Virus record (IMG/VR): IMGVR_UViG_3300047476_000242
Location: 1-27,908 of that record
Length of the DNA stretch: 27,908 nucleotides
Reading direction: 5' to 3' (one strand)
DNA from: a virus
In this document: piece after piece, positions 1,086 through 24,134 of the stretch
Numbering within the stretch: position 1 is the first letter of the stretch
Layout of the letters: every line of letters starts with the position of its first letter
Translations under genes and position numbers: made by a program
Notes under the pieces: model-generated
What the model was told of the DNA's origin: nothing
Database searches by the model: none
The model's input: the letters and a program-made list of their open reading frames with translations, nothing else

Positions 1086-2132
1086 ATGAAAACCGAACAA
1101 ATTTTAAAAGGCATTAAGGAAGCATTGATTGACGGTAAGTCAGTGGTCAATTTTTCCGAAAAAGTCGATTCAAACGAAGCGTCAGCATTAACAGGCAGTG
1201 GCCTTAATGTTGGTGGTCGCACTTACTTTGATGATGCGTTTGCGGCATTGCGTTATGCAAACCCATTCCGTCAAGGTTCACGCCAAATTATTGGCAAAGG
1301 TTCAGCCGCACAATTTGTGGCAAAAACAGGTAACGCAACAAGCGCAACAAACCCATTTGGTTACACAGTTGACGCAAACAGCGGTTCACCTGATATTTCA
1401 ACAGCATTTTGGCAATTGCCAATGCGTGTTATTTCAGCACAACTGCCAATTCGTAGCGCAGTATTATCAGACATCAACAATATTGAATCAGCGGTTGTTA
1501 ATGATTTAATGTTAGAATTTTCAGCCATTGAGGCATCATCAATGGCATTAAACGTTGACCAATCAGGTTCAACAACAACAACTTTAGGCGGCACAAGCGG
1601 CTTGCGTGGTTTAGTAAACTACAACACAAGCACAAGCGCGGCCGCATACGGCACAAGTGGCACTGCAATCACAAATGGTTTGCATACCGTGTTAAAAGAA
1701 GAATTTAGCGCATCAGCAATTGGATATGATGACATTGTGAACGCGGCATCACTATTGCCAGCACAATATTGGTCAATGCCAAGCACTGCATGGCACATTC
1801 ACCCAACATTGCTTGCACAAATCCGCAAATTAAAAGGTTCAACTGGCGGCGCACCAATGTTTGTTGAAGTTGGCAGTGAAGACGGTGGCGCGGGCGCATT
1901 CTTGTTTGGTTTCCCAGTAGTTCCAAACCCATATTTGGCCGCACCAGCCGCAGGCAAGATTTCAGCCGTGTTGGCATGTTGGGATTGTTTCATCACTATC
2001 GTTGACGGTGAAGAAATGTCAATCCAACGCTTTGACCAAACACAACCCGGCACAGTAACGCTTTATGCTGAAAAACGCATGGCATCAACTGTTCGCGATC
2101 CATTTGCAGGCGTGTTTTTAATCGGGGCTTAA
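1086..2132 (+). CDS. Major capsid protein (HK97-type), copy 2
   Basis: Complete 348-residue capsid protein, a clear paralog of the partial gene before it. The start ATG has AGGA about nine bases upstream. The first ~30 residues (MKTEQILKGIKEALIDGKS...) are charged and helical in character, like a short delta-domain or scaffold segment, and the conserved ASALTGSG motif follows at about residue 32. The C-terminal part keeps the PGTVTLYAEKRMASTVRDPF block. The two copies differ most in the middle loops (about residues 85-110 and 160-205). In HK97-like phages one capsid gene is usual, so the pair may form a mixed shell, or one may serve as a minor or vertex protein. The family assignment is firm by context; the division of labour is unknown. 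Confidence 0.85.
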   Translation: MKTEQILKGIKEALIDGKSVVNFSEKVDSNEASALTGSGLNVGGRTYFDDAFAALRYANPFRQGSRQIIGKGSAAQFVAKTGNATSATNPFGYTVDANSGSPDISTAFWQLPMRVISAQLPIRSAVLSDINNIESAVVNDLMLEFSAIEASSMALNVDQSGSTTTTLGGTSGLRGLVNYNTSTSAAAYGTSGTAITNGLHTVLKEEFSASAIGYDDIVNAASLLPAQYWSMPSTAWHIHPTLLAQIRKLKGSTGGAPMFVEVGSEDGGAGAFLFGFPVVPNPYLAAPAAGKISAVLACWDCFITIVDGEEMSIQRFDQTQPGTVTLYAEKRMASTVRDPFAGVFLIGA

Positions 2133-17154: not shown

Positions 17155-18315
17155 ATGATTGATGTTGGTTTAAAGCAGTATGCGACTGAAAAACAGTTGC
17201 ATTACATAAACGCAATCAATGAACATGGAAGTTACCGAAAAGCGGCCGCCGCATTAAATTGCAGTAAGGGTTCAATACAAAAAGCGGTTGAATTGGTAAG
17301 AATGAAAGCCGCAAAGCATGGTTATGCCCCTGATTTTGGCATGGTTCATTCAGTTCCCGAACCGTTTATTGTCAAAGGCCATTCGACACTTTACGATAAA
17401 GACGGCAACACAAAGTTGCAATGGGTAAAGACAACCGTTGAAGACACCAAACTTCAACAAATGATGTTGGAAGCAATTGAAGCGTTGAAAGAAGACATCC
17501 CGCGTGTCAAACCTATTGCCGCACCTAAATATGGCAATCAAAACCTTTTAAACTGCTATGTCATAACCGATTATCATTTAGGCATGCTGGCGTGGAGTGA
17601 GGAAACAAAGGGCGGCGATTGGGATATTGACATTGCACAGGATTTAATCATAAAGTGGTTTGAACAAGCAATCGAACAATCACCCAATGCAGACACCGCA
17701 GTTTTTGCACAGATGTCAGATTTCTTGCATTTTGATGGCATGGATGCCGTTACGCCTGCATCAAAACATTTGCTTGATGTTGACACAAGGTTTGCCAAGT
17801 TGGTTCGGTCAGCAATCAGGGTATTGCGAACAGTGATTGATATGTTGCTGGCCAAGCATCAAAAAGTTCATGTCATTATGGCAGACGCAAACCATGACCC
17901 AGTTTCACAAATATGGTTGCGCGAATGGTTCAGCGTGTTATATGAGAATGAACCGCGTATCACAGTGGACAAATCGCCAAACCCTTATAATGCGTTTGAA
18001 TTTGGTAAGACCGCATTGTTTTTCCATCATGGCCATAAACGCAAAGTGACAAATGTCAGTGAAGTATTTGCAGGCCAATTCCGTGAAATGTTTGGTCGCA
18101 CAAAATATGCCTATGCACATACAGGCCATTTGCATTCGATTGATGTGAAAGAAAACAACTTGATGATTGTAGAACAGCATCGAACGCTTGCCCCTGCGGA
18201 TGCGTATGCCGCACGCGGCGGTTGGTTGTCAGGTCGTGATGCCAAAGTGATTACATATCACAGCCAATTTGGTGAAGTCAGCCGATTAACCATTAATTCC
18301 GACATGCTAAAGTAA
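17155..18315 (+). CDS. HTH plus calcineurin-like metallophosphoesterase
   Basis: A 386-residue protein, start ATG with AAGGA upstream. An N-terminal helix-turn-helix (about 18-48, NEHGSYRKAAAALNCSKGSIQKAVELV) of the type seen in transposase and phage DNA-binding proteins is joined to a metallophosphoesterase domain (about 130-345). Metal-site motifs: DYH (D139, H141), SDFLHFDG (D189), ADANHD (N246, H247), HHGH (291-294) and GHLH (324-327). All five blocks of the calcineurin fold are present. The enzyme probably cuts a phosphodiester or phosphomonoester, possibly DNA or a nucleotide; the substrate is not known. Genes of this architecture occur in other phages between lysis and early regions. 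Confidence 0.85.
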   Translation: MIDVGLKQYATEKQLHYINAINEHGSYRKAAAALNCSKGSIQKAVELVRMKAAKHGYAPDFGMVHSVPEPFIVKGHSTLYDKDGNTKLQWVKTTVEDTKLQQMMLEAIEALKEDIPRVKPIAAPKYGNQNLLNCYVITDYHLGMLAWSEETKGGDWDIDIAQDLIIKWFEQAIEQSPNADTAVFAQMSDFLHFDGMDAVTPASKHLLDVDTRFAKLVRSAIRVLRTVIDMLLAKHQKVHVIMADANHDPVSQIWLREWFSVLYENEPRITVDKSPNPYNAFEFGKTALFFHHGHKRKVTNVSEVFAGQFREMFGRTKYAYAHTGHLHSIDVKENNLMIVEQHRTLAPADAYAARGGWLSGRDAKVITYHSQFGEVSRLTINSDMLK

Positions 18316-18367: not shown

Positions 18368-18383
18368 CAAGCAATTTTGCTTG
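18368..18383 (+). promoter_or_regulatory. Hairpin just upstream of pqqA
   Basis: CAAGCA-ATTT-TGCTTG forms a perfect 6-bp stem, ten bases before the pqqA ribosome-binding site. It has no T tract, so it is a poor terminator; it could be an mRNA processing or stability element. The 90-base gap here also has weak promoter-like hexamers (TTTTCA-17-TATTAA at 18324-18352), which I do not regard as proven. Confidence 0.35.
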
Positions 18384-18392
18384 GTATTTATT

Positions 18393-18397
18393 AAGGG
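18393..18397 (+). promoter_or_regulatory. Ribosome-binding site of pqqA
   Basis: AAGGG, eight bases before ATG 18406. The strength and spacing match the other genes of this phage and show that the 23-codon frame is set up for translation. Confidence 0.75.
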
Positions 18398-18405
18398 CTA
18401 ACATC

Positions 18406-18477
18406 ATGTGGACAAAACCAGCGGCAACAGAAATGCGTTTCGGATTTGAAGTGACAATGTATGTGATGAATAAATAG
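18406..18477 (+). CDS. pqqA: PqqA-like coenzyme PQQ precursor peptide
   Basis: A 23-residue peptide that opens MWTKPAATEMRFGFEVTMY. It has every hallmark of PqqA: 23-residue length, MWxKP start, RxGFEVTMY core, and the Glu-x3-Tyr pair (E15 and Y19). In known biosynthesis PqqE (a radical SAM enzyme working with the PqqD chaperone) crosslinks this Glu and Tyr, and they become the carbon skeleton of pyrroloquinoline quinone. The gene has its own ribosome-binding site and lies at the end of the rightward late block. No pqqB, C, D or E gene is in the window, so the peptide must depend on host enzymes. Likely an auxiliary metabolic gene that supports PQQ-dependent dehydrogenases during infection; decoy or other use is possible. 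Confidence 0.93.
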   Translation: MWTKPAATEMRFGFEVTMYVMNK

Positions 18478-18480
18478 TTG

Positions 18481-18508
18481 AAAAAATAGGGGGCGTTTTA
18501 AGCCCCCT
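18481..18508 (-). terminator. Intrinsic terminator of the leftward operon, beside pqqA
   Basis: Perfect stem GGGGGC/GCCCCC (18489-18494 and 18502-18507). On the minus strand it is followed by TATTTTTT, a good U tract, so it ends leftward transcripts from the 18567 gene. In the rightward direction the hairpin is followed only by TTAAACG, so it would be at most a weak stop for pqqA transcripts, though it may protect their 3' end. Confidence 0.78.
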
Positions 18509-19621: not shown

Positions 19622-19891
19622 CTAGAACGGAATATTTTCGTCAGCAACATCAGGCAAGCCACCATCATTTTGATGATTGTTTGATTGATTATTGTTTGCA
19701 GTTTTTTCTTCAGGTTTAAACATTTGAAACCATCCGTCAAAGTTTACTGGCATTGATTCAATAATCAAAGCAATTCCAGCATCGTTTTTGGCTTCAATAG
19801 CAACGCCGCAACGATGCCAGCGTGTTTTCATTTCACCCGCTTTGTTTTTGTATTCACCGGCTTTCGCCATAACATTAAATAGAACCGCCAT
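19622..19891 (-). CDS. Small single-stranded-DNA-binding-like protein with SSB C-terminal tip
   Basis: An 89-residue protein. The first ~60 residues look like a minimal OB-type fold (MAVLFNVMAKAGEYKNKAGEMKTRWHRCGVAIEAKND...GWFQMF). It is followed by an N/Q-rich linker (about 64-78) and ends in PDVADENIPF, the acidic tip (DxxIPF) that bacterial SSB proteins use to call other repair and replication proteins. It overlaps the exonuclease gene end by 17 bases and lies in an exonuclease/annealing gene set, which fits a role in coating single strands during recombination. Shorter than canonical SSB, so I call it SSB-like rather than SSB. Confidence 0.72.
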   Translation of the reverse strand: MAVLFNVMAKAGEYKNKAGEMKTRWHRCGVAIEAKNDAGIALIIESMPVNFDGWFQMFKPEEKTANNNQSNNHQNDGGLPDVADENIPF

Positions 19892-20507
19892 TTTTAATAC
19901 CTTTCAATTGTTGTGTCAACGTTTCCGTTTCCGTTAAAAATTTAATAACTTCACTTTCTAGTTCGGCAATGTATTCATTATCACGATTAACGCGATAAAT
20001 ATATAAAGCCAAATCATCACCAACTTCAGGGCAATAGGACACAAAATCAACCCATTTGCGGCCAGTGCAAGCCAATTGCCATTGCATTTGATGATAATAC
20101 TTTGCAGGCGATTTGCCTGATAATACTGTTTCAACATGATTGGCGGCCGTTGGGCATTTAATTTCAATCAGCCCTTCATTGCCAACCATTCCGTCAGGTG
20201 ATGCGCCAGCCATTTCAATGGTTGGATGATTAACAAACGCAATTTCAGTGACAAACACACCTGACAACGCCTCATATAATGAACGTGCAACGGGTTCAAG
20301 CATTGTGCCGCGTTCCATGTGATGATTGGTAAACCCTTCATCCTTTGCACCTGTTAAGCGTTCGCAAACCAATTGAATACGGTAGTTGCGGCGCGTGGCC
20401 GCTTCACCTGATTTGCCAGTTGCCATAACATCAGCAACGCGACTGGCAGTTACTTTACCCAATCGCATGGCAAACCATTCGGGCGTGCCTTGTTCAATGT
20501 TTTGCAT
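19875..20507 (-). CDS. YqaJ-type viral recombinase / 5'-3' exonuclease
   Basis: A 210-residue protein from ATG 20507 (AAGGTG six bases upstream); the open frame extends 22 codons further but those lie in the preceding gene. Lambda-exonuclease/YqaJ motifs in order: GTPEWFAMRLGKVTASR (7-23), MERGTMLEP (64-72), GASPDG (101-106, metal ligand D105), LIEIKCP (113-119, catalytic E115 and K117) and YHQMQWQL (138-145). This is the complete PD-(D/E)XK set. It should degrade one strand of double-stranded DNA ends, giving a single strand to the ERF annealing protein encoded just upstream in the operon. Confidence 0.93.
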   Translation of the reverse strand: MQNIEQGTPEWFAMRLGKVTASRVADVMATGKSGEAATRRNYRIQLVCERLTGAKDEGFTNHHMERGTMLEPVARSLYEALSGVFVTEIAFVNHPTIEMAGASPDGMVGNEGLIEIKCPTAANHVETVLSGKSPAKYYHQMQWQLACTGRKWVDFVSYCPEVGDDLALYIYRVNRDNEYIAELESEVIKFLTETETLTQQLKGIKNGGSI

Positions 20508-20646
20508 CAAGTTCACCTTTTTTAACTGGATTTGCAAGGCGGTATTTGTCACCCAAATATGCAATCGCTTCAATTAATTTTTTATCGTAAATTTTGCGGT
20601 GTTTTGGGTCAGGATTTTTCATGCCATAAAGTGAAATGATTGTCAT
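20494..20646 (-). CDS. Small hypothetical protein, 50 residues, between ERF and YqaJ genes
   Basis: Start ATG 20646 has AAGGA nine bases upstream; the gene ends 14 bases inside the exonuclease gene. Sequence: MTIISLYGMKNPDPKHRKIYDKKLI then EAIAYLGDKYRLANPVKK, basic and helical. It fills the space between two recombination genes with tight coupling, so I consider it real. Possibly a small partner of the annealing or exonuclease protein; no known motif. Confidence 0.72.
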   Translation of the reverse strand: MTIISLYGMKNPDPKHRKIYDKKLIEAIAYLGDKYRLANPVKKGELDAKH

Positions 20647-20647
20647 T

Positions 20648-21220
20648 TTATTTTCCTTCAAAAAGTGATTTCATTTGGTCTTTAGCAGTGACAACGGCTT
20701 TAGTTGCCGCAACATCGCCTTTGCATAACACAATGACAGTTTGATATGCCGTCATTAATTCATCCATTGTCTTGCAATTTGTTATTTGCTTGACCAATGT
20801 TTCAGTAGAAATGCGGTTGCCTTCATCACGATTGCTTGCCCTATCGCCATCATCATCATCAGCATATAGGCCGCAAATAGCAGAAAGAGAATAGCGGCGT
20901 AAATAGGTAAGTGCCGAACCAAACCCCTGCGGGTCTTGTTTTGATAGCGGGCATGTTGCAGTGTCTTCAACCCATTCCCCTGAAATGTGCAATAAACGCG
21001 TTGTAAGATGCAAGCGGCCATCATCACTTGGTGTTGGTGATTGCATGAATACAATATTGTTGTTGTTCAAATGATTCTTGACTGCATCAATCACGCTTGA
21101 TAAATCAGCATAGTTATTTTTTAGATGCGGATTTTTTGCGTTTTCCACAGCAAACTTAATTGATTTTTGCGCCAATAGCAAATCAGGCGATATTTTGATA
21201 AGTGATTCTGAAGTTTTCAT
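20648..21220 (-). CDS. ERF-type single-strand annealing recombinase
   Basis: A 190-residue protein from ATG 21220, which overlaps the previous stop (ATGA). The N-terminal domain has the ERF pattern: KFAVENAKNPHLKNNYADLSSVIDAVKNHLNNNNI (about 22-57; family pattern NP-K-YADL-VIDAV...L...GI) and later DPQGFGSALTYLRRYSLSAICGL (about 95-117; GSA-TYxRRYxL). An acidic stretch YADDDDGD follows. The C-terminal domain is helical. Together with the YqaJ exonuclease and SSB-tailed protein it makes a recombination set comparable to P22 Erf/lambda Red. Confidence 0.93.
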   Translation of the reverse strand: MKTSESLIKISPDLLLAQKSIKFAVENAKNPHLKNNYADLSSVIDAVKNHLNNNNIVFMQSPTPSDDGRLHLTTRLLHISGEWVEDTATCPLSKQDPQGFGSALTYLRRYSLSAICGLYADDDDGDRASNRDEGNRISTETLVKQITNCKTMDELMTAYQTVIVLCKGDVAATKAVVTAKDQMKSLFEGK

Positions 21221-21315
21221 AAGCAATACCACCATTTAATTAATGTGTAAGTGAAGAATAAGAATGCAACCAATGTAAATACATACAACGGCCAGTCGTG
21301 TTTTGTTTTGTTCAT
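21217..21315 (-). CDS. Single-pass membrane micro-protein, 32 residues
   Basis: The ATG at 21315 has GAGGG eight bases upstream; the stop TGA overlaps the ERF start (ATGA). Sequence MNKTKHDWPLYVFTLVAFLF then FTYTLIKWWYCL: a basic N-terminus and one membrane helix (about 9-28). The longer frame upstream to 21402 is only the shadow of another gene. Strong ribosome-binding site and overlap support it; function unknown. Confidence 0.68.
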   Translation of the reverse strand: MNKTKHDWPLYVFTLVAFLFFTYTLIKWWYCL

Positions 21316-22331: not shown

Positions 22332-22424
22332 GATTTTGGCTAGGTTATGCAGACCGAAAAGCGGAATCATCACCCGCCTGCCAATTTTCCTATAGATGAC
22401 AACCTTATGATGAGAGGGCAAAAC

Positions 22425-23180: not shown

Positions 23181-23553
23181 ACAACCTTTACCATTGGAAT
23201 GGATTGAACGCATATTTCAACGCTTGCATGGCCGATTTGGCAATTCATTCACAGACAAATTTAAAATGGGTCAGTATGACAACCAAGGCAACGACATTGG
23301 ATTGTTAAACGCCAAGCATGTTTGGTCTGAAGAATTGGCAGGCATATCACCTGAACGCATAAAGAATGGTTTGCTGGCAACTTATGAATACGCGCCATCA
23401 TGTGACCAATTTAAGGCGCAATGCAAATCAACACCTATTGCACACCAAGACTTTGCAAAACTGCCAGCACCGCCAAAGGATTTGCAGAAAGCCGCAGAAA
23501 ATTTGGCCAAGATAAAAAATATTCTACAAACAACATGGCATGAAACGTTATGA
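23173..23553 (+). CDS. P-like helicase loader
   Basis: A 126-residue protein starting at ATG 23173, inside the end of the initiator gene. The LEWIERIFQRLHGRFGNSFTDKF block (about 8-30) and NAKHVWSEELAGISPERIKNGLLAT (about 47-71) match the small phage replication proteins of the lambda P/helicase-loader type, where an initial IFxRL-xxYG motif precedes W-xEL-G-xxxxIxxGL. A proline-containing element PSCDQFKAQC follows, as usual in this group. It would load the host replicative helicase onto the origin. No ATPase motif, consistent with the non-ATPase loader type. Confidence 0.75.
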   Translation: MNKQPLPLEWIERIFQRLHGRFGNSFTDKFKMGQYDNQGNDIGLLNAKHVWSEELAGISPERIKNGLLATYEYAPSCDQFKAQCKSTPIAHQDFAKLPAPPKDLQKAAENLAKIKNILQTTWHETL

Positions 23554-24134
23554 AGTCAGAATTTACAATTCAACAAATTGACAAACAAACATGTGCTGGC
23601 ATTCTTTTAAAGTTTCATTATTTAAAAGATATTTCAAAAGGATTTAAAACTGGATTTAATTACGGATTGTTTAAAGAAAATAATTGTGTTGGTGTTGTTA
23701 TATTTACAGGTTTTCCAGTTCCCGAATTGGCAAAAGGCATGTTAGGTCTTGAACGCAATCAGCAAGACGGTCTTTTTGAATTAAGTAGATTGTGTTTAAT
23801 TCCTGAAATACAACAAACTGAACATAATATTGCAACATGGTTTGTTTCAAGGGCAATAAGGCAATTAAGAAAAGACACCAATGTTCGCGTCATATTATCT
23901 TATGCGGATGTTGATTTTCATAATGGCACAGTTTATAAAGCCGCAAATTTTACTTATTACGGAATGACTGCTAGTAAAAAAGATTTTTGGATTAAAAAAT
24001 TTGATGGCACATTTATTAAACATAGTCGTGGAAAAGTTAAAGGAATTGATGGCGAATGGCGTGAACGTTCAAGAAAGCACAGGTTTGCAATGATTTTTGA
24101 TAATTCATTAAATGTGTTATGGCAAAAACAATAA
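23550..24134 (+). CDS. Mom-like DNA modification protein (GNAT fold)
   Basis: A 194-residue protein overlapping the loader stop (ATGA). It shows the pattern of the phage Mom-like family: an early HYLK (23-26), YGLF and CVGVVIFTGFP strands (38-56), FELSRLCLIPEI (76-87), then NIATWFVSRAIRQLRK (93-108), and the signature ILSYADVDFHNGTVYKAANFTYYG (115-138). In phage Mu, Mom converts adenine to N6-carbamoylmethyl-adenine and so protects phage DNA from restriction. Whether this protein makes the same base is not known, but DNA hypermodification is the best prediction. The C-terminal part is basic (KHSRGKVKGIDGEWRERSRKH), suited to DNA contact. Confidence 0.75.
   Translation: MKSEFTIQQIDKQTCAGILLKFHYLKDISKGFKTGFNYGLFKENNCVGVVIFTGFPVPELAKGMLGLERNQQDGLFELSRLCLIPEIQQTEHNIATWFVSRAIRQLRKDTNVRVILSYADVDFHNGTVYKAANFTYYGMTASKKDFWIKKFDGTFIKHSRGKVKGIDGEWRERSRKHRFAMIFDNSLNVLWQKQ

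Follow-up and report, generated by a model that had tools for sequence, protein, structure and literature searches.

A standalone gene for the PQQ precursor peptide PqqA in a phage of probable Methylophilaceae hosts, and its candidate role in PQQ supply

A linear viral contig of 27,908 bp (IMG/VR record IMGVR_UViG_3300047476_000242; this whole stretch is called the window below) carries a genuine full-length gene for PqqA, the precursor peptide of PQQ, at positions 18406 to 18477 of the plus strand, and carries it without pqqB-E. Phage pqqA is under purifying selection and recurs in phages of largely unrelated genome types. We put at roughly 80% the probability that the gene is a functional, standalone pqqA of host type, serving as an auxiliary metabolic gene that would sustain the supply of PQQ. 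The usual auxiliary metabolic gene specifies an enzyme or a subunit of one, whereas phage pqqA encodes a raw material that is spent once per cofactor molecule. Phage PqqA as such has already been reported; what is new is its standalone form, its breadth, and the near-universal oversight of the gene.

The pqqA gene and the phage that carries it

The pqqA frame comprises 72 bases (23 codons) from an ATG start to a TAG stop, and its product is MWTKPAATEMRFGFEVTMYVMNK. A sequence-only reading had proposed this peptide as PqqA and named the TIGR02107 and PF08042 profiles as the check. Both profiles were matched over the whole model, TIGR02107 (an NCBIfam equivalog) at 40.4 bits (cut-off, 20; E 1.8e-10) and PF08042 (Pfam) at 42.4 bits (cut-off, 21.1; E 6.4e-11), so that each score is about twice the curated cut-off and the proposed identity is confirmed. 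The conserved E15 and Y19, in E-x3-Y spacing near the C terminus, are the residues joined by PqqE; the Glu and Tyr of PqqA are crosslinked by PqqE together with PqqD (PMC10906245). The record contains no other PqqA match. Just as the same reading had it, the gene has its own AAGGG ribosome-binding site; the site lies at 18393 to 18397 on the plus strand, 8 nt upstream of the ATG, and an AGG, GGA, or GAG motif lay just 5' of each of the 173 distinct genes for phage PqqA that were tested. In peptide, E-x3-Y core, MWTKPA start, and ribosome-binding site, the window gene resembles the PqqA family (TIGR02107/PF08042) of the Methylophilaceae. Purifying selection on the gene, and its recurrence in phages both related and unrelated to this one, mark the frame as more than a chance ORF.

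The gene lies within a genuine phage genome. Phage genes flank it, and 23 of the 43 window ORFs are shared with P19250A, a phage grown on the Methylophilaceae strain IMCC19250, in agreement with the earlier claim of a phage location. The window is of the P19250A type, with 14 collinear ORFs from capsid to tail at 40 to 81% identity in addition to YqaJ and ERF. Its structural genes encode two tandem capsid-family proteins, a head-tail connector, a lambda-type tape measure, and a J-like tail protein, and further genes encode an M15 peptidase, YqaJ, ERF, NinB, HNH and VRR nucleases, and a Mom-like protein. Among the window proteins scanned, none was recognised as a methanol dehydrogenase.

To place the host, we scanned one genome per species from 84,980 bacterial and archaeal species with the 15-residue tail EMRFGFEVTMYVMNK. 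The matches listed were mostly named Methylophilaceae (Methylotenera, Methylophilus, Methylopumilus, and OM43), and the remaining matches listed were betaproteobacteria, Nitrosomonadales, Pseudomonadota, or unclassified. Given these matches and the ORFs shared with P19250A, the host is, with high probability, a Methylophilaceae methylotroph. All 121 Methylophilaceae genomes contained pqqA, 118 of them in at least two copies (range, 1 to 12, dispersed), which further supports the assignment to a PQQ-making methylotroph.

Standalone pqqA across cultured and environmental phages

As the sequence-only reading had stated, none of pqqB-E is present in the window: tblastn with Methylotenera PqqB, C, D, and E returned no match there. 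The same searches found no pqqB-E in the complete genomes of P19250A, Venkman, MEP301, MEP401, and MW202481, in a 50-kb segment of Melnitz, or in about 400 viral loci, many of which are fragments. The sole match among the viral loci fell in a bacterial-looking contig deposited as an Acinetobacter phage (L128), and a second query set, PqqB-E taken from that contig, gave the same outcome. The inferred hosts do have pqqBCDE, and 22 host pqqA loci adjoin pqqB-E genes; the extra Methylophilaceae copies, however, are standalone in layout, as in the window phage. Since those copies likewise stand apart from pqqBCDE, the missing neighbors of the phage gene are compatible with its membership in the PqqA family. 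The window gene differs from the Methylophilaceae copies in lying in a phage genome that lacks pqqB-E and in its DNA, which matches none of the examined host copies with an identical product.

A tblastn search of 50,697 phage records with the window peptide returned 12, and repeating the search with a divergent PqqA as query gave the same 12. Nine were phages of Methylophilales/Methylophilaceae hosts (P19250A, Venkman EXVC282S, MEP301, MEP401, MEP402, and four Melnitz records), and all nine Methylophilales isolates surfacing in this set encode a lone pqqA; the nine are those found, and leave out MEP431-434, HIM624-A, and Venkman EXVC038S (taxonomy entries). A tenth record, MW202481, is an uncultured podovirus with no host given, whose peptide is identical to that of the window. 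The last two were deposited as Acinetobacter phage, and the one inspected looks chromosomal: in CAKLQF020000010.1 (L128, "Acinetobacter phage MD-2021a"), ppk and pqqBCDE adjoin pqqA as in a bacterial chromosome, and we rejected it as phage evidence. The window shares 0 to 1 ORFs with Venkman, MEP301, and MEP401, from which we conclude that these phages and the P19250A-like window represent different genome types. P19250A, Venkman, MEP301, MEP401, and Melnitz thus resemble the window in a lone, unannotated pqqA while being of largely unrelated genome types.

The earlier suggestion that gene callers would miss so small a gene proved correct. None of the ten phage records labels pqqA as such, and in five of the ten the site is bare of annotation. 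In Melnitz (MZ577097, L126; one of the four records, inspected) and MW202481 (L127), an opposite-strand ORF is annotated at the site instead, and that hypothetical protein is probably spurious. PHROGs held no family matching the peptide, and the papers on Venkman, MEP301, MEP401/402, and Melnitz make no mention of phage pqqA. Because both gene callers and the phage protein database miss this conserved gene, its spread among phages is undercounted. In the open-access literature that we searched, we found no report of standalone pqqA across methylophages. The closest precedent is VP_266 from Lake Baikal, which encodes PqqA together with methanol dehydrogenase and for which boosted methanol oxidation was proposed (Coutinho et al. 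2020; PMC7678222). Both VP_266 and the window encode PqqA and are tied to a Methylophilaceae host, but VP_266 was assigned as T4-like and carries methanol dehydrogenase, whereas the window is of the P19250A type and carries pqqA alone. That study also states that P19250A encodes none of the PqqA and methanol dehydrogenase genes of VP_266; contrary to this, P19250A does encode pqqA. Elsewhere, pqqA has been listed among viral genes of reservoir sediments (PMC13188868).

By three pattern scans of IMG/VR, pqqA was placed in at least about 290 contigs, which belong to several unrelated phage types and show no pqqB-E. At 50% shared ORFs, a first set of 191 loci formed 30 groups and a second set of about 110 loci formed 13, counts that short contigs inflate; group representatives carried portal, terminase, and tail-sheath genes of differing types. 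A pqqA match accompanied only 5 of 80 YqaJ relatives, and YqaJ is unsuited as an anchor for a denominator of relatives because it is spread over many phages. About 106 viral contigs (within L348-L457) carried a distinct PqqA type and its variants, again without pqqB-E. The divergent PqqA query found no cultured phage with this second type among the 50,697 records. We lean toward the view, as somewhat better than an even bet, that supply of a single-use precursor is a general, convergent phage strategy in PQQ-dependent bacteria, near-universal in methylophages, found as well in unrelated phages that infect a second host group and carry a distinct PqqA type, and overlooked because the gene has only 72 nt.

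A candidate role in PQQ supply

Each molecule of PQQ uses up one PqqA peptide, while PqqB-E are catalysts and can be used again. In the role that we favor, Glu15 and Tyr19 of one phage peptide would become one PQQ through the reusable host PqqB, C, D, and E. Infection is expected to lower new gene expression by the host, and phage pqqA would maintain the sole consumable of the pathway. The phage peptide would be crosslinked by host PqqD/PqqE and completed by host proteases and PqqB/PqqC, and the resulting PQQ would keep periplasmic methanol dehydrogenase supplied, and energy and carbon flowing, up to lysis. That PqqA is single use and PqqB-E reusable would explain why the precursor alone is carried. 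From these sequence comparisons, we infer that the gene is expressed, that its peptide is matured by the host, that PQQ rises, and that the phage benefits.

Several reports bear on whether precursor supply could matter. Methylophilaceae have been described as carrying 3 to 12 pqqA genes, the other pqq genes being mostly single copy (PMC4109929); a methanol-using bacterium has five pqqA copies that differ in expression (PMC9851590); and PQQ in Acetobacter rose by 29% with one engineered construct, which was evidently pqqAB (PMC7936290). The multicopy reports and the 29% gain make precursor supply a plausible lever. The phage gene suggests that infected methylotrophs are limited by their supply of PqqA, which fits the odd multiplicity of host pqqA, although an extra phage dose might have little effect given up to 12 host copies. 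The proposed role would tie phage infection to environmental methanol oxidation. Cyanophage auxiliary metabolic genes of the psbA type provide the fastest-used component of a host energy pathway. The likeness to pqqA is a working one and implies no family relation, as the window supplies a ribosomal peptide consumed for a cofactor rather than an enzyme subunit. Phage-host pairs for a direct test are at hand in P19250A, Venkman and Melnitz (both with H5P1 as host), and MEP301. The medium of the Melnitz host includes 1 nM PQQ (PMC9004378), an amount that could hide the consequences of losing phage pqqA.

As expected of an auxiliary metabolic gene, this host-type metabolic gene has been kept by selection in different phages. 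Pooled pN/pS was 0.14 for 155 distinct phage coding sequences (the pairs compared are not phylogenetically independent), and synonymous differences stood at 0.55, close to saturation, so that the real pN/pS is probably below 0.14. The peptide is often that of the host: of 191 phage peptides, 93 are identical to one from a host, and the window peptide occurs letter for letter in 36 of 130 host genes from Methylophilaceae chromosomes. The DNA, by contrast, is not shared. Exactly this peptide is encoded by 51 phage and 28 host DNA versions, none of them common to both, and the host version nearest to the window gene differs at 9 positions.

These data bear on three other readings, each of which we consider improbable. 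In the first, the phage peptide is a decoy that ties up PqqD/PqqE, cuts PQQ synthesis, and redirects host metabolism; phages encode the precursor and never the enzymes, and substrate mimics can in principle inhibit enzymes of this kind. A decoy would, however, be expected to lose Glu or Tyr, and the phage peptide matches host PqqA letter for letter, as given above. Two of our search patterns required both residues, for which reason a pattern for the start only was used as a check; of its 120 matches, 26 were chance hits to MWTKPA and were dropped. Both Glu and Tyr were kept in 92 of 92 complete genes, with one further gene running off the contig end and one disrupted. The disrupted copy, at position 602 on the match strand of contig L098, leaves the PqqA reading after MWTKPAATEMRFG.

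In the second, pqqA is a small passenger cassette, captured repeatedly from multicopy hosts and tolerated with no real benefit. Capture should be easy with so many dispersed host copies, and related phages hold the cassette in either orientation, but a neutral 72-nt ORF would decay, and a single disrupted copy was seen. Purifying selection is strong and synonymous sites are nearly saturated, and this, together with the presence of pqqA in nine of nine surfaced isolates of largely unrelated genome types, argues against a passenger as well.

The third reading accepts that PQQ is made from the phage peptide and gives it another role in infection, such as redox protection, in place of methanol dehydrogenase. 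PQQ does have roles other than that of methanol dehydrogenase cofactor. A peptide family annotated as PqqA has been discussed in the context of phage interaction (PMC11118758), but the core Methylophilaceae genome includes XoxF-type methanol dehydrogenase along with PQQ synthesis (PMC4109929), and nothing in our analysis points to a different use. Least probable is that the phage copy serves as an attachment or recombination site, offering homology for integration into host pqqA much as tRNA genes do for some phages: host targets are dispersed and multicopy, and the YqaJ and ERF recombination genes lie nearby, but no integrase was recognised among the window proteins scanned (PHROGs, best 25 of 28 families), no phage coding sequence for the window peptide equals a host one, and, because the variation is mostly synonymous, it is the peptide that is conserved and not the DNA. 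Supply of PQQ precursor is therefore the reading that we retain.

Signals and genes around pqqA

The window pqqA starts 90 nt past the last gene of a rightward block, at the junction with a converging recombination block. That last gene (17155 to 18315, plus strand) encodes a phage protein of the DNA repair exonuclease type (phrog_704, E 5.9e-134), and a homologue with 88% identity also precedes pqqA in the related contig L200. The converging block, on the minus strand, comprises genes for a small protein (19622-19891), the YqaJ exonuclease (19875-20573), and the ERF recombinase (20648-21235). Homologues of this block (19622 to 21235) adjoin pqqA in P19250A and in contigs L071 and L145, where pqqA instead lies downstream of the recombination block and on its strand. 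Similar stem-loop leaders accompany pqqA in both arrangements, and the variable placement is consistent with a self-contained pqqA unit that was gained or moved more than once.

In the window, a leader stem-loop, CAAGCAATTTTGCTTG, lies at 18368 to 18383 on the plus strand, and alignment with related phages showed leaders resembling it in L200, L131, L220, L145, and L014. Stem-loops of at least 7 pairs were enriched within the 50 nt or so that precede phage pqqA (67 of 131, against 30 expected from shuffles); their sequences differ and their position is similar, and hosts show a weaker excess. The leader is possibly an mRNA-stabilising or regulatory element. A scan for the sigma-70 consensus just upstream of pqqA gave no site above chance, and transcription by read-through from the rightward block is possible. 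Downstream, a strong hairpin (AGGGGGC-GTTTTAA-GCCCCCT, 18488 to 18508) has its T-run on the minus strand, so that termination of the converging leftward genes is its likeliest function; it may also cap the pqqA transcript.

Some features farther from pqqA were also noted. The genes at 4 to 1029 and 1086 to 2132 (plus strand) form a tandem pair with 43% identity, both apparently of the phage capsid family, and P19250A has side-by-side homologues of both. The gene at 23550 to 24134 (plus strand) encodes a Mom-family protein (PF25680, E 2e-27), which likely modifies DNA and could thereby protect the phage genome. Finally, an int-alpA RNA (RF02996; 41.1 bits, over the gathering score) at 22333 to 22399 on the plus strand overlaps the listed start of the ORF at 22347, which suggests that the true start of this replication-type protein lies further downstream.
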